In this document: positions 3,174 to 21,732 of the stretch, one piece after another | Position numbering within the stretch: position 1 is the stretch's first letter | Layout of the letters: each line of letters opens with the position of its first letter | From: Streptomyces sp. RerS4 | GTDB taxonomy: Bacteria > Actinomycetota > Actinomycetes > Streptomycetales > Streptomycetaceae | DNA length: 64,000 bases | Assembly: GCF_023515955.1 (NCBI RefSeq) | Contig: NZ_CP097322.1 | Coordinates: forward strand, 5,070,501-5,134,500 | Direction of reading: 5' to 3' | Position numbers and translations under genes: made by a program | Notes under the pieces: generated by a model | Database searches by the model: none | Told to the model about the DNA's origin: nothing | Seen by the model: only the letters and a program-made list of their open reading frames with translations

Positions 3174-3396
3174 CGTCTCAGATACTAGGAAGTCCGAGTA
3201 ATTGCGGAGACATACAGCCCGACCTGCCCTAGCTTTGTAGAAGCCGAACGTCTCGCCGATCCGGCGAATGGCGGTCGAGAGCGCGCGCCCACCGGCAGGC
3301 AACCCCTGCGGCCGCAGCTCCCCGCCTCTTCCGGCGCCTTGAAGGAACCCCTCATCCGTGGCCCCGCCACGCCGTGATCTCAAGGAGTCGATCACC

Positions 3397-3528
3397 ATGA
3401 CCCCCACCTCCGCCGCGACCCGCCGCGTCCGCCACGCCTCCCCGGCCGACCAGGACCGCAAGAACGCCGCCGCCGCCCTCCAGCGCGCCCTGGACCGCCG
3501 CGACAACGGTGGCTCGACCGGCCACTGA
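3397..3528 (+). CDS. Small basic hypothetical protein (43 aa)
   Basis: A short ORF beginning MTPTSAATRRVRHASPADQD and ending RRDNGGSTGH. It is preceded by AAGGAG at 3381-3386, a good ribosome binding site 10 nt from the ATG. Codon third positions are strongly G/C, as in real genes here. No domain is recognised: the protein is hydrophilic with many Arg and Ala and no signal peptide or membrane segment. It lies 147 nt upstream of leuB. The region 3174-3396 before it holds no other gene that I can support. Confidence 0.55.
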   Translation: MTPTSAATRRVRHASPADQDRKNAAAALQRALDRRDNGGSTGH

Positions 3529-3663
3529 CCCGGCCCGTCGACCGGTCCGACCCGCTGCCCACCCGCCGGTCCCACCCGCCGCCCCGACACGTCGCGTCCA
3601 CCGCGCGCGCCGCACGCACGTCCATATGGTGGACGCGATATGTCTGAGGGCTGGGACACGGAG

Positions 3664-3675
3664 TACGGTTCCGTC
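3664..3675 (+). promoter_or_regulatory. -10 element of a probable leaderless leuB transcript
   Basis: TACGGT (3664-3669) fits the actinobacterial TANNNT -10 element and ends exactly six bases before the leuB ATG, the spacing expected if transcription starts at the A of the start codon. No convincing -35 is seen. Confidence 0.45.
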
Positions 3676-4716
3676 ATGTCGACCAGCCTCAATCTCGCAG
3701 TGATCCCCGGTGATGGCATCGGCCAGGAAGTCGTGGCTCAGGGCCTCAAGGTCCTTACCGCGGTCCTGCCCCAGGATGTGAAGCTGGAGACCAAGGAGTA
3801 CGACCTCGGCGCCCGGCGGTGGCACCGCACCGGTGAGACCCTCCCGGACGCCGATCTGGAAGCGCTCAAGCACCACGACGCGATCCTCCTCGGCGCCATC
3901 GGCGACCCGTCGGTCCCGTCCGGCGTGCTGGAGCGCGGTCTGCTGCTGAAACTCCGCTTCGCCTTCGACCACTTCATCAACCTGCGCCCCTCGAAGCTCT
4001 TCCCCAACACCGCCACCCCGCTGGCCGGTCGTCCGGAGATCGACTTCGTCGTGGTCCGCGAGGGCACCGAAGGCCCGTACACCGGCAACGGCGGCAGCCT
4101 GCGCACCGGCACGCCGGCCGAGGTGGCCACCGAGGTCAGCGTCAACACCGCGTACGGCGTCGAGCGCGTCGTCCGGGACGCGTACGAGCGGGCCAACGCC
4201 CGCCCGCGCAAGAAGCTGACGCTGGTCCACAAGAACAACGTCCTCGTCTACGCCGGCCACCTGTGGAAGAACACCTTCGACCGGGTCGGCCGGGAGTACC
4301 CCGAGGTCACCACCGACTACCTGCACGTCGACGCCGCGACGATCTTCTTCGTCACCCAGCCCGAGCGCTTTGACGTCATCGTCACGGACAACCTCTTCGG
4401 TGACATCCTCACCGACCTGGCCGCCGCCGTGACCGGCGGAATCGGCCTCGCCGCCTCCGGGAACATCAACCCGACCGGCGCCTTCCCGTCGATGTTCGAG
4501 CCCGTCCACGGCTCGGCCCCCGACATCGCCGGCACGGGCAAGGCCGACCCGACCGCGACGATCCTGTCCGTGGCCCTCCTGCTGCGCCACCTCGGCTACG
4601 AGGCGCAGGCCGCCCGCATCGAGGACGCGGTCTCCGCCGACCTGGCGGAGCGCGACGGCACCTTCCGCTCCACCGACGCGATCGGCGACGCCCTCGCCGC
4701 GCGAGTAGCCGGCTGA
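3676..4716 (+). CDS. leuB: 3-isopropylmalate dehydrogenase
   Basis: Third step of leucine biosynthesis: NAD-dependent oxidative decarboxylation of 3-isopropylmalate to 2-oxoisocaproate in the cytoplasm. The 346-aa protein has the isocitrate/isopropylmalate dehydrogenase signatures [13 protein letters not shown] at the N-terminus, [14 protein letters not shown] near 120, and the metal-binding [16 protein letters not shown] with downstream [16 protein letters not shown]. The ATG at 3676 gives the standard N-terminus and sits 6 nt after a -10-like TACGGT, suggesting leaderless expression. A strong terminator follows at 4739-4773. Length and motifs match the actinobacterial LeuB type. Confidence 0.96.
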
Positions 4717-4738
4717 CCCGGCAGCGCCACCTCATCAG

Positions 4739-4773
4739 GAAGCCGCCAGGTCACAAAGGGACCTGGCGGCTTC
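4739..4773 (+). terminator. Terminator after leuB
   Basis: Perfect 13-bp stem: GAAGCCGCCAGGT (4739-4751) and ACCTGGCGGCTTC (4761-4773) around a 9-nt loop, starting 22 nt after the leuB stop codon. Confidence 0.85.
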
Positions 4774-4824
4774 ACCTGTGCGGCCCCGGGTGCCACCATC
4801 TCCCCTGGACCGCTCTCACCCCGC

Positions 4825-4854
4825 TTCACCGAAGGCGCGGCCGCGCGCGATAAT
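4825..4854 (+). promoter_or_regulatory. Candidate HrdB-type promoter of ilvE
   Basis: TTCACC (4825-4830) and GATAAT (4849-4854) are spaced by 18 nt. This would give a leader of about 85 nt before the ilvE ATG, which has its own Shine-Dalgarno sequence (AAGGACAAG). Confidence 0.5.
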
Positions 4855-4946
4855 CGAACGCGAGGCCGCGGAATACGGAGAAGCCCGGACGTCCGATACG
4901 CAGTGAGCGCGGTCCGCCCTACCCAACCGGTGAAGGACAAGCACTC

Positions 4947-6047
4947 ATGACGACGCCCACGATCGAGCTGAAGCCCTCCTCGAACCCCCTGTCCGACGCG
5001 GAGCGCGACGCGATCCTGGCCAGCCCCGGTTTCGGCCGCCACTTCACCGATCACATGGTGACCATCAAGTGGACCGAGGGACGCGGCTGGCACGACGCCG
5101 AGCTCGTCCCGTACGCCCCGCTGTCGATCGACCCGGCGAACATGACCCTGCACTACGCGCAGACCATCTTCGAGGGGCTCAAGGCGTACAGGCAGCCCGA
5201 CGGCACCGTCGCCACCTTCCGCCCGCTCGCGAACGCCGAGCGCTTCCAGGCCTCCGCCCGCCGCATGGCGATGCCGGAGCTGCCGACCGAGCTGTTCATC
5301 GAGGCGTGCGACGCGCTCATCAAGCAGGACCGCGCCTGGGTGCCGGACTCCGGTGAAGCCTCGCTGTACCTGCGTCCGTTCATGTTCGCCTCCGAGGTCG
5401 GCCTCGGTGTCCGCCCGGCCAACGAGTTCCTCTTCATGGTGATCGCCTCGCCCGCCGGCGCGTACTTCCCCGGTGGCGTCAAGCCCGTCTCCGTCTGGCT
5501 CTCCGAGGAGTACGTCCGCGCGGTCAAGGGCGGCACCGGCGCGGCCAAGACCGGCGGCAACTACGCGGCCTCCCTCGTCGCCCAGGCGCAGGCGGCCTCA
5601 CACGGCTGCGACCAGGTCGTCTGGCTGGACGCCGTGGAGCACCGCTGGATCGAGGAGATGGGCGGCATGAACCTGTACTTCGTGTACGCCGAGGAGGACG
5701 GGAAGCGGCGCATCGTCACCCCGGAGCTCACCGGCTCGCTCCTGCCCGGCATCACCCGTGACTCCCTCCTCACCATCGCCCGCGACCTCGGCTACACCGC
5801 CGAGGAGGGCCGCATCAGCACCGAGGACTGGAAGCGCGACAACGAGAACGGCACCCTGACCGAGGTGTTCGCCTGCGGCACCGCCGCCGTCATCACCCCC
5901 GTCGGCTCCGTCAAGTCCGAGCGCGCCAACTGGATCCAGGGCGACGGCGAGCCCGGCGAGGTCACCATGAAGCTCCGCAAGGCGCTGCTCGACCTCCAGA
6001 CCGGCCACAGCGCCGACACCCACGGCTGGATGCACCCGCTCGGCTGA
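4947..6047 (+). CDS. ilvE: Branched-chain amino acid aminotransferase
   Basis: PLP-dependent class IV aminotransferase that interconverts leucine, isoleucine and valine with their 2-oxo acids. The 366-aa protein shows the BCAT-II pattern: [12 protein letters not shown] near residue 70, the PLP-lysine region [19 protein letters not shown] near 200, [12 protein letters not shown] near 230 and the [15 protein letters not shown] motif near 310. The start is supported by AAGGACAAG upstream. It follows leuB in the same direction but is separated from it by a terminator and a candidate promoter, so it is probably a separate transcript. It ends at a strong bidirectional terminator. Confidence 0.96.
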
Positions 6048-6113: not shown

Positions 6114-7541
6114 CTAGTCGGCCGCCACCGCCACCGAGCCCATCGGGTCGGTGACGGGCGCCGCCTCGGGCCGGATCGTCAGGGCGGTGTACACCACGCC
6201 GCCGACCAGCCCCGACAGGATGAAGCTGCAGTCCACCCCGCCGGTGAGGGCCAGCAGCGGGCCCTCGTAGACCGGGGTCGACACGGCGGCCAGTCCCACC
6301 GCCGCGCCCGCCACCCAGGAGGCGGTGGCGCGGAGGTTCCAACCGCCGCGGTACCAGTAGACCCCGCCGCGGGCCCGACGGTTGAACACCTGGAGGGCGT
6401 CGGGGTCGTAAACGCCCCGGCAGCGGACGTAGCCGATCAGGGTGATCACGGCCCACGGGGTGCCGATCGCGGTCAGGAGCAGCACGAAGGAGGTCATCGC
6501 CGACTGCACGTCCCACTCGAAGGAGCCGACGAACACGAAGACGGTGGCGACGCCGGCCGCGGCCAGGGTGGCCGTGGTGCGGGTGGCCTTGGGGACGATC
6601 GCGTCGAGGTCGAGGCCCATGGAGTAGAGCATCAGCCCGGCGTTGCCCACCGAGCCGGCGGCCGCGGCGACGAGCAGCGGTACGAGGTACCAGAACGGCG
6701 CGGCGTCGACGAGCGGCCCGGCGTAGTCGAGGCCCGCCTTGGCGGCCAGCGCGGTGTACGTACCGAACAGCTGCGGGATCAGCAGGCCGATGAGCAGGCC
6801 GAGGCAGGTGGCCCAGAAGACCTTGCGGGAGCCGTGCCGGCGCGGGGAGACGTAGCGGGTGTAGTCGCCGAGCAGGGTGATGAAGGCGACGGGTCCGCTG
6901 AGCCCGGCGGCGACGGCGGCGAGCAGCCACGTCGGCCAGAAGGAGCCGAGCAGGTACGCGGTCTCCGGCGGGGCGGCGGTGGTGAAGTCCGGGGCGTAGG
7001 CGAAGACGCCGACGGCCAGCAGGATCACCATGCCGATGGACAGGATCTTGCTCATGCGCAGCAGCAGTCGGTAGCCGAAGACGGCCGCGACGACGGTACA
7101 GGCCGCCAGCGCGCCGTACATCACGGCCCGGGAGACGCCGGTGTTCGGCAGGCCGGTCAGTCGGGACAGGGTCCCGACCATCACGTCGCCGCCGATCCAC
7201 AGGGTCAGCGCCGTGTAGCCGAGGGACAGCAGCAGGCCGACGACCGAGCCGACCAGCCTGCCGCGGACGCCGAACTGGGCGCCGCTGGAGGTGGAGAGGT
7301 TCGTCGCGGTGCGCAGGGATACCAGCGCGAGCGGCGCGGTGAAGGCGATGCCGACGAGGGTGCCGGTCACGATGGCGGTGACCGAGGGCCACAGGCCCAG
7401 TCCGAAGGACGGGGGCAGCCAGCCGAAGACGATCACACCGAGGCAGAGGTTGGAGCCCAGGAGGATCGAAATCAGGTCACGGGGACCGCTGGTCCGCTCC
7501 TCCTCCGGGATGGTGTCGACTCCGCGCTGTTCGATGGGCAT
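6114..7541 (-). CDS. NCS1-family purine/cytosine permease (CodB-like)
   Basis: Cytoplasmic membrane transporter of the nucleobase:cation symporter-1 family, which imports cytosine, purines, hydantoins, allantoin or related compounds. The 475-aa protein has about 12 hydrophobic segments and begins MPIEQRGVDTIPEEERTSGP, the usual hydrophilic N-terminus before helix 1 (LISILLGSNLCLGVIVFGW). The ATG at 7541 has a GGAGT ribosome binding site; longer starts extend into unrelated sequence. It is divergent from the ureAB-ureC operon across a 157-nt gap containing a perfect palindrome. It may supply a nitrogen compound degraded by the neighbouring enzymes; the substrate is inferred only from context. 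Confidence 0.88.
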   Translation of the reverse strand: MPIEQRGVDTIPEEERTSGPRDLISILLGSNLCLGVIVFGWLPPSFGLGLWPSVTAIVTGTLVGIAFTAPLALVSLRTATNLSTSSGAQFGVRGRLVGSVVGLLLSLGYTALTLWIGGDVMVGTLSRLTGLPNTGVSRAVMYGALAACTVVAAVFGYRLLLRMSKILSIGMVILLAVGVFAYAPDFTTAAPPETAYLLGSFWPTWLLAAVAAGLSGPVAFITLLGDYTRYVSPRRHGSRKVFWATCLGLLIGLLIPQLFGTYTALAAKAGLDYAGPLVDAAPFWYLVPLLVAAAAGSVGNAGLMLYSMGLDLDAIVPKATRTTATLAAAGVATVFVFVGSFEWDVQSAMTSFVLLLTAIGTPWAVITLIGYVRCRGVYDPDALQVFNRRARGGVYWYRGGWNLRATASWVAGAAVGLAAVSTPVYEGPLLALTGGVDCSFILSGLVGGVVYTALTIRPEAAPVTDPMGSVAVAAD

Positions 7542-7651
7542 GGGGGGACTCCCTTGGCAGGGCGGGGGGTGGTGGCGCTTGTCTTTGAGCGACATTCAAT
7601 GTGACCTAATCCCTGCGGTCCGGTCAATGATTCCTTGAGGCGAGATGAAGA

Positions 7652-7670
7652 GTTAGAGTGATGCTCTAAC
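7652..7670. promoter_or_regulatory. Palindromic operator in permease/ureAB intergenic region
   Basis: GTTAGAGTGATGCTCTAAC is a perfect inverted repeat (7-bp arms, 5-nt centre), 28 nt upstream of the ureAB start and in the only control region shared by the permease gene and the ure operon. The best candidate ligand is the TetR-family regulator encoded at the end of that operon. Confidence 0.65.
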
Positions 7671-7698
7671 CCATCGACTCAAAAGGTGGTGGATCGGC

Positions 7699-8415
7699 GT
7701 GCGGCTGACCCCTACGGAGCGTGACCGGCTGCTGCTGCGCAGCGCGGCGGAACTGGCCCGAGCCCGACGGGCCCGTGGCCTGAAGCTGAACGTCCCCGAG
7801 GCCACCGCGCTGATCGCGGACACGGTCTGCGAGGCCGCGCGCGACGGCAAGCGACTGGCCGAGGCCATCGAGGAGGCCCGTTCCGTCCTCGGCCCCGAGG
7901 ACGTGCTGCCCGGCGTGGCCGACGTGGTCACCGAGGTCCACGTCGAGGCCGTGTTCGACGACGGATCCCGCCTCGCGGTGGTCTCCGCGCCCGTCCAAGG
8001 CGCCGCCTTCCTCGGCGACGAGGCCCCGGGAGCCGTCGTGCCGGGCCCTGGCGCCCCGCAGCCCGAACCGCAGCTCCACCTGCGGGTACGCAACACGGCG
8101 CCCGTGCCGGTGAGCGTCACCTCGCACTTCCACTTCTTCGAGGCGAACCCCCGGCTCGACTTCGACCGCGCCGCCGCCTACGGCATGCGGCTGTGCGTAC
8201 CGGCCGGCTCCTCCGTGCGCTTCGACCCGCACGGCGAGGGCGAGGTCGGTCTGGTCCCGATCGGCGGGGCGCGCGTCGCCGTCGGCTTCGCGGGACTGGT
8301 CGACGGGGAGCTGGACGCCCCCGGCGCCAAGGAACAGGCCCTGGCCCGTGCCGCCGCCTGCGGCTACCTCGGCGCCGCCGGCGCCACCGACACCGCGGAT
8401 GGAGAACAGGCGTGA
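7699..8415 (+). CDS. ureAB: Fused urease gamma/beta subunit
   Basis: A 238-aa fusion. Residues 1-100 are a UreA (gamma) domain (RLTPTERDRLLLRSAAELA, then ARGLKLNVPEATALIAD and AARDGKRLAEAIEEAR). Residues about 125-225 are a UreB (beta) domain with the VSVTSHFHFFEANPRLDFDR signature. Fused gamma/beta subunits are known in some actinobacteria and Helicobacter. The start is GTG 7699 after AAGGTGGTGGATCG. The stop overlaps the ureC start by 4 nt (GTGA), implying translational coupling. With UreC it would form the (alpha, gamma-beta) urease assembly, but no ureD/E/F/G genes are present here. Confidence 0.92.
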   Translation: MRLTPTERDRLLLRSAAELARARRARGLKLNVPEATALIADTVCEAARDGKRLAEAIEEARSVLGPEDVLPGVADVVTEVHVEAVFDDGSRLAVVSAPVQGAAFLGDEAPGAVVPGPGAPQPEPQLHLRVRNTAPVPVSVTSHFHFFEANPRLDFDRAAAYGMRLCVPAGSSVRFDPHGEGEVGLVPIGGARVAVGFAGLVDGELDAPGAKEQALARAAACGYLGAAGATDTADGEQA

Positions 8416-10145
8416 GCCGTCAGACCCCCCACAGCGACCACTGCGCCCCCGGCAGCCGCCACATCGACCCGCACGAGTACGCGTCCGTCTTCGGCCCCCG
8501 CGCCGGCGACCGGGTGCGGCTCGGCGACTCCGGGCTGACCGTCCGCGTCGAGCACGACGCCCAGAAGCCGGGCGACGAGTTCCTGGCCGGCTTCGGCAAG
8601 ACGGCCCGCGACGGCCTGCACCTGAAGGCCGCCGCCGTCCGCGAGACCTGTGACGTGGTCATCAGCAACGTGCTGGTCATCGACGCCGTGCTCGGCATCC
8701 GCAAGGTGTCGATCGGCATCCGCGAGGGCCGCATCCACGCGATCGGCCGCGCCGGCAACCCGGACACCCTCGACGGGGTCGACGTGGTCGTCGGCACCGG
8801 CACCTCGATCGTCTCCGGCGAAGGCCTGATCGCCACCGCCGGAGCGGTGGACACGCACGTCCACCTCCTCTCGCCGCGGATCATGGAGGCCTCGCTCGCC
8901 GCCGGTGTCACCACCGTCATCGGCCAGGAATTCGGCCCCGTCTGGGGCGTCGGGGTCAACTCCCCGTGGGCGCTGAAGCACGCCTTCAACGCCTTCGACG
9001 CCTGGCCGGTCAACATCGGCTTCCTGGCCCGTGGTTCCTCCTCCGACGCCGCCCCGCTGGTGGAGGCGCTGGCCGAGGGCGGTGCGTCCGGGTTCAAGGT
9101 GCACGAGGACATGGGCGCGCACACGCGCGCCCTGGACACGGCGCTGCGGGTGGCCGAGGAGCACGACGTGCAGGTCGCCCTGCACAGCGACGGCCTCAAC
9201 GAGTGCCTGTCGGTGGAGGACACCCTGCGCGTGCTGGAAGGCCGCACCATCCACGCCTTCCACATCGAGGGCTGTGGCGGCGGACACGTCCCCAACGTGC
9301 TGAAGATGGCGGGCGTGCCGAACGTCATCGGCTCCTCCACCAACCCGACGCTGCCCTTCGGCCGGGACGCGGTCGCCGAGCACTACGGCATGATCGTCTC
9401 CGTCCACGACCTCAAGCCGGACCTTCCCGGCGACGCCGCCATGGCCCGCGACCGCATCCGCGCCGGCACCATGGGCGCCGAGGACGTCCTGCACGACCTC
9501 GGGGCCATCGGCATCACCTCCTCCGACGCCCAGGGCATGGGCCGCGCGGGCGAAACGATCCGGCGTACCTTCGCGATGGCCGCGAAGATGAAGGGCGAGC
9601 TGGGTCCGCTGGACGGCGACGGCGAGGGCGACGACAACGCCCGCGTGCTGCGCTACATGGCCAAGCTCACCATCAACCCGGCCATCGCCCACGGCCTGGC
9701 GCACGAGATCGGATCCATCGAGGTCGGCAAACTCGCCGACATCGTCCTGTGGCGCCCCGCCTTCTTCGGCGCCAAGCCGCAGCTCGTCCTCAAGTCCGGC
9801 TTCCCCGCCTACGGAGTCACCGGCGACCCCAACGCCGCCACCGACACCTGCGAACCCCTCGTCCTCGGCCCGCAGTTCGGCGCCTACGGCGCCACGGCCG
9901 CCGACATCTCCGTGGCCTTCGTCTCGGCCGCCGCCGCGGCCCTGAGCGGCGACGCCATGCCGACCCGCCGCCGCCGGGTCGCCGTACGCGGCACCCGCGG
10001 CATCGGCCCCAAGGACATGCTCCTCAACTCCCGGGTGGGCGCGGTCGATGTCGACGCGCGCAGCGGACTCGTCTCCCTCGACGGGGAACCGCTGCGCTCC
10101 GAAGCCGCCGATTCGGTCTCCCTCAACCGCCTGTACTTCCTGTAG
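8412..10145 (+). CDS. ureC: Divergent urease alpha subunit (UreC-like amidohydrolase)
   Basis: A 577-aa amidohydrolase. All residues that bind the two nickel ions in classical ureases can be placed: HVH in DTHVHLLS, the carbamylated Lys in GFKVHEDMG, His in ALHSDGLNE, His in IEGCGGGH, and Asp in SSDAQGMGRAGE. The substrate side differs: the classical flap MVCHHL is IVSVHDL here, so the flap Cys is Val and the second His is Asp. The classical AGTxATTCTPG segment is replaced by EFGPVWGVGVNSPW. The gene overlaps ureAB by 4 nt and is followed 19 nt later by an agmatine-deiminase-like gene. It is a urease paralogue by fold; urea as substrate is not certain. Confidence 0.9.
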   Translation: MSRQTPHSDHCAPGSRHIDPHEYASVFGPRAGDRVRLGDSGLTVRVEHDAQKPGDEFLAGFGKTARDGLHLKAAAVRETCDVVISNVLVIDAVLGIRKVSIGIREGRIHAIGRAGNPDTLDGVDVVVGTGTSIVSGEGLIATAGAVDTHVHLLSPRIMEASLAAGVTTVIGQEFGPVWGVGVNSPWALKHAFNAFDAWPVNIGFLARGSSSDAAPLVEALAEGGASGFKVHEDMGAHTRALDTALRVAEEHDVQVALHSDGLNECLSVEDTLRVLEGRTIHAFHIEGCGGGHVPNVLKMAGVPNVIGSSTNPTLPFGRDAVAEHYGMIVSVHDLKPDLPGDAAMARDRIRAGTMGAEDVLHDLGAIGITSSDAQGMGRAGETIRRTFAMAAKMKGELGPLDGDGEGDDNARVLRYMAKLTINPAIAHGLAHEIGSIEVGKLADIVLWRPAFFGAKPQLVLKSGFPAYGVTGDPNAATDTCEPLVLGPQFGAYGATAADISVAFVSAAAAALSGDAMPTRRRRVAVRGTRGIGPKDMLLNSRVGAVDVDARSGLVSLDGEPLRSEAADSVSLNRLYFL

Positions 10146-10164
10146 ACCAGCAAGGACACCAGCT

Positions 10165-11211
10165 ATGAACAAGCCCGTCGACGCCGGATTCCGCATGCCC
10201 CCCGAGTGGGCTCCGCACGAGCGCACCTGGATGGCCTGGCCCAGCCCCAACCCGACCTTCACCAACGACGAGGAGCTCGCCGAGGCCCGTCGGGCCTGGG
10301 GCTCGGTCGCCCGCGCCGTCAGCGCGTACGAGCCGGTCACCCTGGTCGTCTCGCCCGGCGACGCCGACAACGCCCGCGCCGTGGTCGGCGCCGGCGACTC
10401 GCACCCCGTCGACCTGGTCGAGCGCGACCTCGACGACGCCTGGATGCGCGACATCGGCCCCACCTTCGTCACGAACGACGCCGGTGAGCTGGCCGCCGTC
10501 GACTGGACCTTCAACGGCTGGGGCGCCCAGGAGTGGGCCCGCTGGGACCACGACTCGAAGATCGCCCGCCACGTCTCCGACCTCGTCGGCACCCGCACGT
10601 ACAGCACCCCCCTCGTCAACGAGGGCGGCGCCATCCACGTGGACGGCGAGGGCACCGTCCTGCTCACCGACACCGTGCAGCTCGGCGAGGGCCGCAACCC
10701 CGACTGGACCCGCCGGCAGGTCGAGGCCGAGATCCACGCCCACCTCGGCACCACCAAGGCGATCTGGCTCCCGTACGGCCTGGCCGGCGACTACGGCACC
10801 TACGGCACGCAGGGCCACGTCGACATCGTCGCCGCCTTCGCCCGTCCCGGCGTGGTCATGGTCCACACCCAGCCCGACCCGGCCCACCCGGACCACGAGC
10901 GCTGCAAGACCATCGCCGCCCTCCTGCGCGCCTCCACCGACGCGCGGGGCCGGCGGCTGGAGGTCGTGGAGATCCCCGCGCCGACCGTCCTGGAGGAGGA
11001 CGGCGAGTGGGTCGACTACTCGTACATCAACCACTACCTGTGCAACGGCGGTGTGGTGCTGTGCGCCTTCGACGACCCGCGCGACGAGGAGGCCGCCGAG
11101 ATCTTCCGGGGCCTGTTCCCCGAGCGGACCGTGACACTCGTTGACGCACGTACGATTTTCGCCGGGGGTGGCGGCATCCACTGCATCACCCAGCAGCAGC
11201 CGAAGGTCTGA
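10165..11211 (+). CDS. Agmatine deiminase family protein
   Basis: A 348-aa member of the guanidino-group modifying (peptidyl-arginine deiminase-like) fold, which converts guanidino compounds such as agmatine to ureido compounds plus ammonia. Catalytic features are visible: Asp in DAWMRDIGPTF (near 95), His-Asp in GHVDIVAAF (near 220) and the nucleophilic Cys in GGGGIHCITQQQP near the C-terminus. The usual DETDGHVD is replaced by a longer GLAGDYGTYGTQGHVD segment. The ATG start has AAGGACACC upstream. It is third in the ureAB-ureC operon, so its product may feed the urease-like enzyme. True agmatine specificity is unproven. Confidence 0.85.
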   Translation: MNKPVDAGFRMPPEWAPHERTWMAWPSPNPTFTNDEELAEARRAWGSVARAVSAYEPVTLVVSPGDADNARAVVGAGDSHPVDLVERDLDDAWMRDIGPTFVTNDAGELAAVDWTFNGWGAQEWARWDHDSKIARHVSDLVGTRTYSTPLVNEGGAIHVDGEGTVLLTDTVQLGEGRNPDWTRRQVEAEIHAHLGTTKAIWLPYGLAGDYGTYGTQGHVDIVAAFARPGVVMVHTQPDPAHPDHERCKTIAALLRASTDARGRRLEVVEIPAPTVLEEDGEWVDYSYINHYLCNGGVVLCAFDDPRDEEAAEIFRGLFPERTVTLVDARTIFAGGGGIHCITQQQPKV

Positions 11212-11245
11212 ACGCGGACCCGGCGGACCTCGTGAAGGAGTGACC

Positions 11246-11887
11246 ATGGCGGCGGGCGGAGTACCGGTACGGGCGGCGCGCAAGAACGCGCCCCCGCGCG
11301 AGGACGTCCTCGTCGCCGCCATGGCCATGATCGCCGAACGGGGTCTGGACGGCCTGACCATGGCCGGACTCGGTCGCGAGGTCGGCATGAGCAGCGGCCA
11401 CCTCCTCTACTACTTCGGCAGCAAGGACGAGCTCCTGCTGCGCACCCTGGAGTGGAGCGAGGCCGCGCTCGGCGCCGAGCGGCGCGCCCTGCTGGCCCGG
11501 CGCGGCCCCGCCCGCGAACGCGTCCAGGCGTACGTCGACCTCTACGTGCCCGACGGCCCCCGGGACCCGCACTGGACCCTGTGGCTGGAGGTCTGGAACC
11601 GCTCGCAGAACGCGGGACCCCAGGAGCGCGAGCGCCAGGCGGCCATCGAGGGCGCCTGGCACCGCGACCTCGTCGCCCTGCTCGCCGAGGGGATCTCGCG
11701 CGGCGAGTTCCGCCCCGTGGACCCCGACCGCTTCGCGGCCCGGCTGCGGGCCCTGCTCGACGGGTTCAGCATCCAGGTGGCCGTCGGCCTGCCCGGGATA
11801 GGGCGCGAGGACATCCTGGAACACGTACGCGAGTTCCTGACGGACACCCTCGTGGCCCTGGGCAGCGGCGGCGTGACCGAATACTGA
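11246..11887 (+). CDS. TetR-family transcriptional regulator (BetI-like C-terminal domain)
   Basis: A 213-aa repressor-type protein. The N-terminal HTH is clear (REDVLVAAMAMIAERGLDGL, then GLGREVGMSSGHLLYYFGSK at about residues 45-65). The ligand-binding part contains DPHWTLWLEVWNRSQ, typical of the BetI/TetR_C_6 type. The ATG at 11246 follows GAAGGAG; a GTG two codons upstream is possible. Last gene of the ureAB-ureC-deiminase operon, so it is the natural candidate to bind the palindrome at 7652-7670 and respond to a pathway compound. That link is inferred. Confidence 0.9.
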   Translation: MAAGGVPVRAARKNAPPREDVLVAAMAMIAERGLDGLTMAGLGREVGMSSGHLLYYFGSKDELLLRTLEWSEAALGAERRALLARRGPARERVQAYVDLYVPDGPRDPHWTLWLEVWNRSQNAGPQERERQAAIEGAWHRDLVALLAEGISRGEFRPVDPDRFAARLRALLDGFSIQVAVGLPGIGREDILEHVREFLTDTLVALGSGGVTEY

Positions 11888-17971: not shown

Positions 17972-20900
17972 TCAGCCGAGCCGGACCTCGACGCCTTCGG
18001 GCATCGAGTCCAGGTCCGGCGGGCGGCTGTCGGCCGTTCGGCACCGGGTGAGGTGGAGCTTCTTCAGGGCCGAGTGGGCGGCCAGGATCCCGAGGTCGTC
18101 GGGTAGGACACAGTCTGTCAGCCACAGGTGGGTGAGCTTGGGCGGGTGGCCCCCTGGTGTGCCCGGCCACTGCCGCAGGTCGTAGCCCTCCAGTTCCAGG
18201 CTCATCAGCCGGGTCAGACCGTGCAGCACCGTGAAGTTCGCCGGTGCCCCGCTGCCCCCGAGCGTGAGCGAGATCAGATCCGGGACCCCCGCCAACGGGA
18301 GGAAATCCGTGGTTTCGCCCAGCATGCTCAACTGCAGGCTTGTCAGGCCCTGCGGCAGCGGTATTTCACTGATGGGCGGCAGCGACGGAAAGGTGAGGCG
18401 CAGGCTCATCAGATCCGGCAGATCGTTCAGAACCGATACGTCCCGCAGCCGCACACGTCCTCCCAGAGTGAGCGCCCTCAAGTGGGGGTGGAGCCGCAGC
18501 GGTGAGAGGTCGTTCTCGTCCCGGAGGTTGGTGACGTACAGCGCTGAGAGGTCCTGCGCTGCACGGGCGTCCGCGAGCCCGGGCAGCGGATAGGTGATGG
18601 CGATTCGGCGGGCTGTGGGCAGCGATGCGAGTTCAGCGCACTGCTTGGGGTGGTCCACGAACAACAAGTGGTCCCTGAGCGAGAACTGCTTCAGTACTCG
18701 CTCGGTGAACTCCCGGGCGTCGAAGTACTCCCAGTGATAGGCGAGTTGGCTGTGCACCCGGGGGTCCTGGGCCCACCCCTCCAGCAGCTTCAGCGCTTGA
18801 TCGCCACCGATCAGCGCGGTCGTCCGGACCAGGGCATCGGCCGCCGCGTCCGACTCCGCGGCCAAAGACGTGGGCAGGCGGCGCAGCACCGGCGTGCCGA
18901 CTACGGCCAGGGATTCCGCCTCGCTTGTGCGGCGCGGCGGGATCAGGGCGTCGAGCGCCTCGTCCAGCGGGCCGGCGAGCGCGTCGGGTACGGACGGCAT
19001 GGTCTCCAGGCAGGAGGTGGCGAGCAGGCGCAGACGCCGCCTGTGGCGGGGTTCGGCGGCCGCGCGGGCAAGGATGCCTTCGATCAGCTCCACCTGCTGG
19101 GAGGTGTAGGCGTGGCCCGCCGCCATGACGATGGTCTCGCGCCACTGGTCCAGGTGGGCCCGCTCGACCAGGTTTCCGATCCTGTCCTCCCGGACCGCCT
19201 CGGCCGCGGCCAGGTACTCCTGGAACGTGCGGTGCAGGAAGTCCACCCGGTCCTCGGCAGGTGCACGCAGCACGCCACAGCGCTGGAGCAGCCGGTCGAA
19301 GACCCTGTCGGCATCGGCCTTATCCAGGTGCCGCATTCGACCGAGCGCGGCCCGCACGCGGCTGACGGCCCGCTCCTGGGTGATCTCGCTGCGGTTGGTG
19401 TCGGACAGCCACCACGCCAGGTCTTGGAGCAGCAACTGCTTGTCCGTCAGGGACAGTTCGACATCGGGCTCGCCGGGGATGTGGCGGCGGGAATCCCTGA
19501 CGTGCAGCAGGACGCCCAGAGCCCGGCGGTACAACTCCATCCGGTCACGCGGCAGTTGGCGGCGATCCTCCAGGTGGAGCGCACAGAGCATCGCCGCCAG
19601 CAGCGGGCTCGACGCCAGGGAGGCCAGGTGGGGGCGGTCCTTGAGGGCGGTGATCAGGGAGCTCTCGTAGTGCGGGAGTTGTCCGGGCTCGCAGGGGAGT
19701 TGATCGCCCTGTTCCCGCACGGCCTGGTGCCACTGGCGGATGAACAGCACCAGGTCGGACGGCCGCATCCGGTCCAGCAGCACGGGCTGGAAGCCGTCGT
19801 TGCGCAGCCAGTCCTTGCCGGCTGCCGCAGGGCGTGACGTGACCACGATCCGGTTGCCCGGGTAGTGGCGGACCAGATCGCGCAGCCAGGTCCGCACCGC
19901 CCGGCGCTCGTTCGTCGGGAGCTCATCGACCCCGTCCACCAGGAACAGGACCTGCTTGTCGCGCAGCCGGCGGTCCAGCCAGGCCTTGGGCATGTGACCC
20001 GAGATGAAGCCGGCGGCATGGTCCATCATGGCTTCCGGTTTCTCGGGCAGTGGCTTGCCCGCGAAGCGCCGCAGTTTGATCAGCACGGGCACGAGCCGGT
20101 TCCATTCGGCGAGCCCATCCGTGAAGGTGCCGCGCGCCGCCGTGACCGCGAGCCATTTGAGCAGGGTCGACTTACCCGAGCCGGCCTCACCCCGCAGCAG
20201 CACGAGAGGGGCGTCACCCAGCGCCGTTTCCACCCGGACGCCGTGCCCGCCCTCGTCCTCCTCGGCCCAGTCGCCAAGCGCCGAACGTGGCGTGGGCACC
20301 AGACGGGAGCGCCGGCCCGTCTCGCTCCCGCCGGTGCGCAGGCTGACGTAGGCCACGGACAGCTTGGTCCGAGGCGCGCGCTCCGACGCGAAGCTGTACA
20401 GCTCGATCTCGTCGTGCAGGTCGCTGATCAGCCTCAGGTACTCCTGCCGGAAACCCTCGTCCTGGGCGGTGCCCAGCGGCGCGTACAGCGTCGGGGTGTA
20501 GAGGCGCTCCAGCACGCGGGCCACCTCGGATGCCAGGGAGGTGGTGCGCGCCAGCAACTCCGCCACGGCCCGCTCGGTGAAGACCGGCAGGTGCTTGAGG
20601 ATCTGTACGTAGCACCTCACGCACTCGTCGAAGAGACGGTCGTGGAAGGCGCTGCCCGCCTCGGACAGGCCCGCCGGGGCGGGGACGGCGTCACGGATCC
20701 GGCGGGCCAGCACCGTCGCATCGGCGTCCGAGCCGATCACCGCCTCGTCCGAGAGGTTGGCGCGAACGAAGGTGTCGGTCACCCCGTCGAGGGCGGCCTG
20801 CCGCTCATTCGCCTCCAGTCCGGCGAACTCGTTGGCCAACAGCGGCTCCAGGCGCACCGAGACGGCGTCGCCCATCTTCTCGAACTGGCGCACCAGATCG

Positions 20901-21052
20901 TTTTGGGCGCGCAGCCCCTTCACCCGTACGCGGATCAGGTCCCCCATCGAGGACCCCGCCTCCTGTTCGCGCCGGCGCGGTTCCAGCCATAGCGACACCG
21001 CTCGGGTGGCCAGGACACGACCCAGGTTGATCGCTGCTGCCTCGGCGCTCAC
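17972..21052 (-). CDS. NACHT-LRR STAND ATPase (bacterial NLR-like protein)
   Basis: A 1026-aa NLR-like protein. Residues 1-250 are an alpha-helical N-terminal region of the kind called NACHT N-terminal helical domain. The NACHT ATPase follows, with Walker A LLRGEAGSGKSTLLKWLA near 285, Walker B VLFLVDGVDELP near 370 and sensor RIVVTSRPAA near 400. Next comes a winged-helix/helical region (VDFLHRTFQEYLAA), and residues about 830-1026 are leucine-rich repeats (for example LISLTLGGSGAP, LMSLELEGYDL, LTHLWLTDC). GTG 21052 is chosen for its GGGGGA site and the conserved MSAEAAAINLGRVL start. Bacterial NACHT proteins can act in phage defence; that role is inferred. It is downstream of cvnD2 but separated by a hairpin. 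Confidence 0.9.
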   Translation of the reverse strand: MSAEAAAINLGRVLATRAVSLWLEPRRREQEAGSSMGDLIRVRVKGLRAQNDLVRQFEKMGDAVSVRLEPLLANEFAGLEANERQAALDGVTDTFVRANLSDEAVIGSDADATVLARRIRDAVPAPAGLSEAGSAFHDRLFDECVRCYVQILKHLPVFTERAVAELLARTTSLASEVARVLERLYTPTLYAPLGTAQDEGFRQEYLRLISDLHDEIELYSFASERAPRTKLSVAYVSLRTGGSETGRRSRLVPTPRSALGDWAEEDEGGHGVRVETALGDAPLVLLRGEAGSGKSTLLKWLAVTAARGTFTDGLAEWNRLVPVLIKLRRFAGKPLPEKPEAMMDHAAGFISGHMPKAWLDRRLRDKQVLFLVDGVDELPTNERRAVRTWLRDLVRHYPGNRIVVTSRPAAAGKDWLRNDGFQPVLLDRMRPSDLVLFIRQWHQAVREQGDQLPCEPGQLPHYESSLITALKDRPHLASLASSPLLAAMLCALHLEDRRQLPRDRMELYRRALGVLLHVRDSRRHIPGEPDVELSLTDKQLLLQDLAWWLSDTNRSEITQERAVSRVRAALGRMRHLDKADADRVFDRLLQRCGVLRAPAEDRVDFLHRTFQEYLAAAEAVREDRIGNLVERAHLDQWRETIVMAAGHAYTSQQVELIEGILARAAAEPRHRRRLRLLATSCLETMPSVPDALAGPLDEALDALIPPRRTSEAESLAVVGTPVLRRLPTSLAAESDAAADALVRTTALIGGDQALKLLEGWAQDPRVHSQLAYHWEYFDAREFTERVLKQFSLRDHLLFVDHPKQCAELASLPTARRIAITYPLPGLADARAAQDLSALYVTNLRDENDLSPLRLHPHLRALTLGGRVRLRDVSVLNDLPDLMSLRLTFPSLPPISEIPLPQGLTSLQLSMLGETTDFLPLAGVPDLISLTLGGSGAPANFTVLHGLTRLMSLELEGYDLRQWPGTPGGHPPKLTHLWLTDCVLPDDLGILAAHSALKKLHLTRCRTADSRPPDLDSMPEGVEVRLG

Positions 21053-21090
21053 GTCGTCCCCCTTCGTCCCCTCCGTCAGAAACACAGAAC

Positions 21091-21117
21091 GCCGGGAACC
21101 CGGACGGGGTTCCCGGC
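21091..21117 (-). terminator. Hairpin between cvnD2 and the NACHT-LRR gene
   Basis: Perfect 10-bp stem GCCGGGAACC (21091-21100) / GGTTCCCGGC (21108-21117) with a 7-nt loop, 30 nt past the cvnD2 stop and 39 nt before the NACHT start. It probably ends the conservon transcript and uncouples the NACHT gene. Confidence 0.7.
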
Positions 21118-21147
21118 GGACCGGGTGAAAAAGGAGCGCGCGGACGG

Positions 21148-21732
21148 TTACCGCAGGCGAGCCATCAGGGCGTGCTCGACCAGGGTGATGAGGGCGCTCT
21201 TGGCGTCCGCGCGGTGGCGGGCGTCGGTGGTGATGATGGGGGCGTCCGGGCCGATCTGGAGGGCCTCGCGGACTTCCTCCGGCGTGTACGGCTGGTGGCC
21301 GTCGAAGCCGTTGAGGGCGATCACGAACGGCAGGCCGCTGTTCTCGAAGTAGTCGACCGCCGGGAAGCAGTCCGCGAGACGGCGGGTGTCGACGAGGACC
21401 ACCGCGCCGATGGCGCCGCGTACGAGGTCGTCCCACATGAACCAGAAGCGGTCCTGTCCGGGGGTACCGAAGAGGTACAGGATCAGGTCCTGGTCCAGGG
21501 TGATGCGGCCGAAGTCCATGGCGACCGTGGTGGTCGTCTTGTCACCGGTGTGGGTGAGGTCGTCGATACCCGCGGAGGCGCTGGTCATGACGGCTTCGGT
21601 GCGCAGCGGGTTGATCTCGGAGACCGCGCCGACGAACGTGGTCTTGCCCACGCCGAAGCCGCCCGCCACCACGATCTTCGCGGAGGTGGTGGAGCGGGGA
21701 GCCGCTCCGCCGTTAGAGCTTGCGAAGTCCAC
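21148..21732 (-). CDS. cvnD2: Conservon GTPase CvnD (ATP/GTP-binding protein), copy 2
   Basis: A 194-aa small Ras-like GTPase. P-loop GGFGVGKTTFVGAVSEI starts near residue 24, a Thr-rich switch I (GDKTTTTVAMDFG) follows, and switch II is FGTPGQDRFWFMWDDL. Conservon GTPases act with the sensor, roadblock and DUF742 proteins at the membrane. The gene overlaps cvnC2 by 20 nt. It is nearly identical to the second CvnD in this window (26287-26871), with two stretches of identical DNA. Numbering follows the S. coelicolor cvn1/cvn2 order by synteny. Confidence 0.93.
   Translation of the reverse strand: MDFASSNGGAAPRSTTSAKIVVAGGFGVGKTTFVGAVSEINPLRTEAVMTSASAGIDDLTHTGDKTTTTVAMDFGRITLDQDLILYLFGTPGQDRFWFMWDDLVRGAIGAVVLVDTRRLADCFPAVDYFENSGLPFVIALNGFDGHQPYTPEEVREALQIGPDAPIITTDARHRADAKSALITLVEHALMARLR
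21161..21648 (-). repeat. Mosaic duplicated segment shared with cvnD1 (26300-26787)
   Basis: Bases 21161-21297 (137 nt) and 21404-21648 (245 nt) are identical to 26300-26436 and 26543-26787, a constant offset of 5139. The 106 nt between carry many, mostly silent differences. Shorter identical tracts are found in cvnB (22503-22591 and 22692-22788 against the copy 5018 nt further on). Confidence 0.85.

Follow-up and report, generated by a model that had tools for sequence, protein, structure and literature searches.

A divergent urease-like complex linked to a deiminase in Streptomyces and other Actinomycetota

A 64,000-nucleotide stretch of the Streptomyces sp. RerS4 genome (approximately 7.5 Mb), here called the window, carries at positions 6114–11887 an operon encoding a urease-like complex (fused UreA-UreB and a non-canonical UreC), an agmatine-deiminase-like enzyme and a TetR-family regulator, with an NCS1-family permease gene facing it. 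UreC is linked to the deiminase across many genomes, conserves the catalytic residues of urease, has a remodelled active-site loop and lies on a tree branch separate from canonical ureases. The operon is also intact in genomes where the maturation proteins UreD, UreF and UreG were not found. We regard it as an evenly balanced proposition that the complex works as a binuclear amidohydrolase independent of chaperones, stripping the carbamoyl group from the ureido product of the deiminase and probably not acting on free urea.

Conservation of the operon and its deiminase

The fused UreA-UreB protein (gamma-beta; 7699–8415, forward strand) contains 238 amino acids with PF00547 and PF00699 domains and scores above the NF009671 cut-off. 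Its gene overlaps by 4 bases with that of UreC (8412–10145, forward strand), which encodes 577 amino acids with PF00449 and PF01979 domains. The agmatine-deiminase-like enzyme (PF04371, 375 bits) is encoded at 10165–11211 on the same strand, in an open reading frame (ORF) that is open from 10048. An earlier reading of this stretch, the original prediction, had placed these genes and the TetR gene in one operon divergent from the NCS1 gene, and the ORFs and Pfam matches show that all five genes are real and so arranged.

Genomes flagged as belonging to the genus of the window were taken to be Streptomyces. A UreC-type match (E 1e-60) was found in 116 of 121 such genomes sampled; the divergent form, with a best E <1e-200, accounts for 73 of them, and the best E is weaker in the other 43. 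A larger, overlapping sample of the genus gave some UreC match in 374 of 393 genomes. The 80 best UreC matches, all from Streptomyces, were kept as loci for comparison; counts from them thus measure conservation, not breadth. UreAB is present alongside UreC in all 80 loci. The deiminase adjoins UreC in 78 of them (75 at ≥60% identity), and in the two others (L027 and L079) the contigs end less than 100 bases from UreC. Linkage counts are direct tallies from gene tables, with no statistical model applied.

The pairing is also seen at other locations with other deiminases. A second locus type (L028, L076, L118–L122, L124 and L125) contains UreABC with a different deiminase that shares 41–45% identity with that in the window. 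Judged by likeness of gene calls, most of these loci carry the same Dpp/Nik-type ATP-binding cassette (ABC) transporter, L124 excepted; in L119, the only copy scanned for families, all Dpp/Nik-type matches of the transporter fall under cut-off. L044, noted together with this type, lies beside ilvE. Further PF04371-type paralogues, with 33–38% identity to the window deiminase and often accompanied by TetR-like genes, were observed in L028, L119, L120, L121, L122, L124, L125 and L076. In a third locus type (L126 and L127), UreC shares 77–78% identity and the deiminase gene directly precedes UreAB. Outside the genus, UreC (51% identity) and the deiminase (44%) are paired in genome G208, and the same pairing occurs in G007 and G224. 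Chance neighbourhood was rejected as an explanation, since the linkage recurs at different locations with different deiminases. The original prediction had named a lack of conserved linkage as a refuting outcome; the opposite is seen in the 80 loci, in the further Streptomyces locus types and in three genomes from elsewhere in Actinomycetota. Among hand-picked genomes of the 121-genome and 393-genome samples, PF04371 was detected in 8/8 with the divergent UreC versus 4/12 without it.

The window deiminase retains intact DDAWMRDIGPTF, NEGGAIHVDGEGT, GHVD and GGGGIHCITQQQP, corresponding to the Cys/His/Asp/Glu motifs of the guanidine-modifying fold, with residue roles that we take to be those generally assigned. 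It scores under both NCBIfam agmatine-deiminase cut-offs (332.5 versus 483 bits and 326.7 versus 381.8 bits). Deiminases of the PF04371 family act on substituted guanidines, and agmatine serves here as the default guess for the substrate. In L142, a sarcosine-oxidase/GcvT-like protein is encoded at 3356–5848 near the deiminase and divergent UreABC genes. This neighbour hints that N-methylated guanidino acids may be substrates, and creatine-like compounds would fit as well.

Active site, phylogeny and maturation genes

The UreC residues were compared by alignment to urease chain 1ejw, which we take to be the Klebsiella urease, with residue roles assumed accordingly. The window UreC retains H149/H151, K229, H231, H258, H284, D372, H332 and R348, and this alignment bears out the predicted presence of all metal ligands. 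H332 corresponds to the catalytic H320 of Klebsiella. In the flap, C319 and H321 are replaced by V331 and D333, giving VHD in place of CHH. The flap change of the original prediction is therefore real as a Cys to Val and a His to Asp substitution, and it involves no loss of the catalytic His, because H332 matches H320. The predicted change in the pocket was also recovered: the loop containing A167, presumably a contact to urea in the Klebsiella enzyme, is replaced and is 4 residues shorter than in 1ejw. In UreC of a non-Streptomyces lineage (f15) this loop lacks 11 residues relative to canonical ureases, and none of the non-canonical rows compared retains it unaltered, the loop being either remodelled or deleted. 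The metal ligands H149, H151, K229, H258, H284 and D372 are invariant in 13 aligned Streptomyces UreC sequences. The window UreC scores 643.9 bits, below the TIGR01792 (urease_alph) cut-off of 680, and passes the subfamily model NF009686.

The ratio of nonsynonymous to synonymous substitution rates (dN/dS) between the window UreC and five orthologues of the genus is 0.11–0.17, a range that includes the orthologues from the accessory-free genomes G652, G379 and G171. L126, which is more distant, gives 0.29, so that the pairwise values for six relatives range from 0.11 to 0.29. A loss of UreC catalysis was considered and rejected, given these values and the retained ligands and catalytic His. 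An apparent stop in UreC of G652 was likewise rejected, the TGA lying at query position 18, just 5' of a Met.

In a first tree, 29 non-canonical and 16 canonical UreC sequences fall on opposite sides of one branch with a support of 100; three near-copies were left out. For a second tree, the loop and flap columns were removed and canonical UreC sequences of Thermus, Methylobacterium, the archaeon Halomontanus and Rubrobacter were added, the last being identical to a row already in the tree. Nine rows were left out (L141 and L142 as partial, the rest as near-copies). This tree separates 24 non-canonical from 20 canonical rows (SH-like approximate likelihood ratio test 100), and the Methylobacterium UreC, which comes from a cluster with like gene order, falls with the canonical ones. 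Both trees are quick and unrooted, so that the position of the branch as sister of all ureases is a reading and not a proof. The UreC of L105 (genome G065), with a canonical A167-type loop and a flap of VVHS for VCHH, forms a long branch among the canonical ureases.

The original prediction had described the operon as lacking ureD, ureE, ureF and ureG. This stands for the surroundings of the operon, where no ureD, ureF or ureG was seen among the genes read, and does not extend to the genome, where a canonical ureC with UreF, UreG and UreD is located at approximately 1.25 Mb (contig C1); UreE was never searched for. The informative genomes are those whose only intact UreC is divergent or otherwise non-canonical. 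Six belong to the genus: G379, G428, G465, G512 and G652, with a single UreC match, and G171. UreD was not found in G379, G428, G465 and G652, and G171 has a sub-threshold remnant. None of these five has UreG over the cut-off; four show weak sub-threshold UreG matches and G652, a single contig, none at E 0.001. Of the five, G379 and G171 were tested for UreF, and it was found in neither. The UreAB, UreC, deiminase and TetR reading frames are open in all five genomes. By eye, the canonical operon of G171 (L130, C1 440000–455000) is decaying, with its UreC interrupted by an insert containing transposase-like genes; the divergent operon is intact.

Outside the genus, UreD, UreF and UreG were not found in any of 11 genomes with only a non-canonical UreC (10/10 of the f15 family and G208). 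The f15 genomes are 81–98% complete, which makes single absences weak and leaves the joint pattern informative. All three families are present in G087, G088 and G218, which have a canonical UreC, and UreD and UreF are present in G296 and G362, which have both UreC kinds. Taken together, the tested maturation families (two to three of UreD, UreF and UreG, with UreE never searched for) were not found in 16 genomes with only a non-canonical intact UreC, 5 from the genus and 11 others. G309 and G386 also have no UreD, UreF or UreG over cut-off and were kept outside the strict count because they consist of more than 1,000 contigs and have a second UreC match. An unplanned check of two further genomes of the genus with no UreD (G335 and G358), whose UreC had seemed canonical by identity, revealed yet another non-canonical UreC. 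No UreD match was obtained in G302 and G320, fragmented drafts whose canonical UreC lies close to contig ends. With these genomes that keep UreC without the maturation genes, its independence from UreD, UreF and UreG, as originally predicted, is well supported at the level of gene content.

Proposed reaction and alternative explanations

In the proposed route, the deiminase would take one nitrogen from a guanidino compound, yielding a ureido (N-carbamoyl) compound. UreABC, with a canonical binuclear site, a carbamylated lysine and an opened pocket, would then hydrolyse the carbamoyl group to give the free amine, CO2 and ammonia. Removal of the A167 wall may make room for the substituent. UreABC would take the role of N-carbamoylputrescine amidohydrolase while being built on another scaffold. 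The metal centre may assemble spontaneously; dihydroorotase and hydantoinase are examples of spontaneous assembly of a binuclear site with a carbamylated lysine. A broader reading, which we advance tentatively as falling somewhat short of an even chance, is that these proteins form a second deep branch of urease complexes, apart from canonical ureases including an archaeal one. Its members would self-assemble without UreDEFG and act as decarbamoylases on the ureido compounds of linked deiminases, with offshoots in nonribosomal peptide biosynthesis.

Urease is the textbook example of an enzyme that needs dedicated metal chaperones and acts on essentially one substrate. If the proposal is true, a widespread sister branch in chaperone-free genomes separates fold, metal loading and substrate. 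Many Actinomycetota genes annotated as "urease subunit alpha" would then not be ureases, which would affect genome-based claims of urea use and biomineralisation. Two homologous complexes side by side also make the need of nickel urease for UreDEFG a testable question.

A true urease isoenzyme that hydrolyses free urea at a non-nickel centre able to assemble by itself, as in Helicobacter UreA2B2, with a deiminase that feeds it, for example by converting guanidine to urea, is an unlikely but serious alternative. No catalytic residue needed for urea chemistry is missing from the window UreC, the operon persists in five genomes of the genus that lack UreD and UreG, and the iron-cofactored UreA2B2 is described in part of the literature as encoded outside the accessory cluster. 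Set against this, the loop with the presumed urea contact A167 is remodelled or deleted in all non-canonical rows compared, the deiminase family acts on substituted guanidines, no guanidine riboswitch was found in the window operon or nine related loci, and free urea would be an odd substrate for those members located beside nonribosomal peptide synthetase (NRPS) genes. A hydantoinase- or imidase-like amidohydrolase on a urease scaffold, performing ring opening or amide cleavage with the deiminase in a later or parallel step, seems improbable. NCS1 carriers transport cyclic ureides and nucleobases, and some relatives lie beside amidohydrolase-like genes (by Pfam in L159, by weak matches in L126 and by eye in L164) or NRPS genes; yet all 80 loci retain the gamma and beta subunits specific to urease alongside UreC, and the NCS1 gene is optional.

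It is very improbable that the complex is a duplicate nickel urease of the ordinary kind, with canonical ureDFG genes from another part of the genome maturing it in trans. The canonical urease of the window genome, with its UreD, UreF and UreG, could provide such maturation. Of the 73 sampled genomes carrying the divergent UreC, 69 have UreD over cut-off, so that the use of chaperones in trans is possible in most genomes bearing the operon. G512, in which the divergent UreC is the sole UreC match, retains UreD together with a UreG broken by one stop and is a case against strict co-loss of the maturation genes. The 16 genomes without the tested maturation families argue against such a duplicate, as do G335 and G358, which combine a non-canonical UreC with no UreD.

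Besides the retained UreD genes and G512, several other observations weigh against the decarbamoylase proposal. Nine active-site positions were checked in 165 loci with a UreC match, and three loci depart. L073 (Streptomyces sp. CC53) has Thr for the metal-bridging K229, the sole ligand departure, which may reflect a sequencing error or an inactive copy; in the f15 genome G084, the two contig ends L141 and L168 carry Leu for R348. An AlphaFold model of UreC built from 13 close Streptomyces sequences has a mean predicted local distance difference test score of 31.9 and a predicted template modelling score of 0.28. PF04371 was not found in six of ten f15 genomes, which are drafts of 81–91% completeness. 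In G245, G037 and G117, UreABC precedes ABC transporter genes, which in the copy scanned (G245) best match PotA, PotD and PotB, all below cut-off. In L159, amidohydrolase and major facilitator superfamily (MFS) genes identified by Pfam lie beside UreC; by eye, L164 looks like L159 and L165 has an MFS-like gene.

Four plasmids also encode UreAB-UreC (66–68% identity) beside nonribosomal-peptide genes and a phosphotransferase. They are from Embleya NBC_00888 (L150), Streptomyces NBC_00637 (L151), S. anulatus NBC_01523 (L152) and Kitasatospora NBC_01519 (L153), the last with its gene order read from gene calls in an unannotated record. The annotation of NBC_00637 names a 2-oxoglutarate oxygenase beside UreAB-UreC and an FkbM-type methyltransferase in the NRPS gene set, and one NRPS protein matched solved structures. 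The plasmid urease homologue is perhaps used in natural-product biosynthesis. Searches of plasmids with two other branch members gave no new close group among the best 8 matches each, save Streptomyces sp. NBC_00841, whose UreC is a further non-canonical type. Because several members of the wider branch have no adjacent deiminase, the deiminase appears to be a feeder in some members and not a defining part of the branch.

Permease, regulator and relation to known systems

The NCS1-family permease (6114–7595, reverse strand; PF02133, 309 bits) scores below the TIGR00800 cut-off, and its protein gave no match to solved structures at E 0.001. An NCS1 gene lies next to UreC in 62/80 loci, 5 of the 62 being partial, and NCS1 is thus an optional partner. 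An MFS carrier gene is located downstream in 23/80 loci. Ten loci with full flanks have neither NCS1 nor an MFS carrier, and two of these (L028 and L076) have ABC transporter genes instead. Of the complete import-deiminate-hydrolyse route in the original prediction, the deiminase link is conserved, although some branch members have no adjacent deiminase; with NCS1 present in part of the loci, the route as a whole holds only in some strains.

The TetR-family regulator (approximately 11240–11887, forward strand; ORF open from 11141) has a BetI-type C-terminal domain (PF00440 and PF13977) and is present at ≥60% identity in 73/80 loci. A perfect inverted repeat, GTTAGAG-N5-CTCTAAC, lies between the divergent genes at 7652–7670. 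It is the sole match in the window with at most 2 mismatches, against 0.01 expected by chance, and the core TAGAG-N3-6-CTCTA occurs upstream of UreAB in 47/80 loci. We infer that TetR binds this candidate operator, through which it would repress both the operon and the facing permease gene. The search for RNA families that included the guanidine riboswitch gave only sub-threshold matches of other families in the window operon (E up to 1). One of these, to the antisense 5'ureB small RNA model (28.7 of 40 bits), is read as coding similarity; the scan of the nine related loci gave only two tRNAs. The operon and the facing NCS1 gene are flanked by leuB/ilvE-like genes and a citramalate/isopropylmalate-synthase-like gene, named by eye. 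Elsewhere in the window, a large ORF on the reverse strand (17972–21436) resembles by eye a NACHT/NLR-type ATPase with leucine-rich repeats.

The window complex shares its subunit architecture with canonical nickel urease (UreABC with UreDEFG), along with the metal ligands, the catalytic His, the Arg and the lysine that undergoes carbamylation in urease. It differs in the VHD flap, the replaced and shorter A167 loop, the separate tree branch, and an operon without adjacent maturation genes, the tested families of which were also not found in the 16 whole genomes that keep this kind of UreC.

To our knowledge, Helicobacter mustelae UreA2B2 needs no accessory proteins. This iron-cofactored urease, whose structural genes likewise lie outside the accessory cluster, is a precedent for another metal (PMC11541087, PMC6247508). 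Gene tables around the window operon and its relatives also show structural genes with no linked accessory genes. The portions of these sources available to us describe UreA2B2 as an active urease made when nickel is restricted and mention no deiminase partner, and the comparison is by description only. A score of 499.9 bits against the window UreC puts chain 3qga ("Urease subunit beta 2") below most ureases listed.

The window genes presumably correspond to those numbered SCO5525–5527 in S. coelicolor. S. coelicolor and S. avermitilis have been noted to possess a ure(AB)C cluster that contains no accessory genes (PMC2492869); the same paper places its UreC close to the ureases with fused (AB) subunits from Bradyrhizobium and Pseudomonas syringae. 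That placement, as far as the accessible part of the paper presents it, differs from the present tree. SCO5525-5526 were regarded as urea-utilising genes and SCO5527 was listed among the arginine decarboxylase (ADC)-pathway homologues in a study of ArgR (PMC3293853), and ure(AB)C figures as one of the functional urease clusters in a study of moonmilk (PMC5489568). The genes are thus of the same kind, with the accessory gap already noted, and were read in these excerpts as urease or urea-utilising genes. The accessible parts of the three papers do not describe the deiminase link, the active-site change or the accessory-free genomes, and the titles and abstract openings listed in searches of open-licence papers mention neither a deiminase linkage nor a remodelled site.

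The known analogue of the proposed route is agmatine deiminase with N-carbamoylputrescine amidohydrolase (AguA-AguB), as outlined in the accessible part of the source (PMC9397018). The window deiminase scores below the agmatine-deiminase cut-offs and belongs to the same Pfam family as AguA. The proposed two-step logic is alike, and the second step here would be carried out by a urease-type metalloenzyme instead of AguB.

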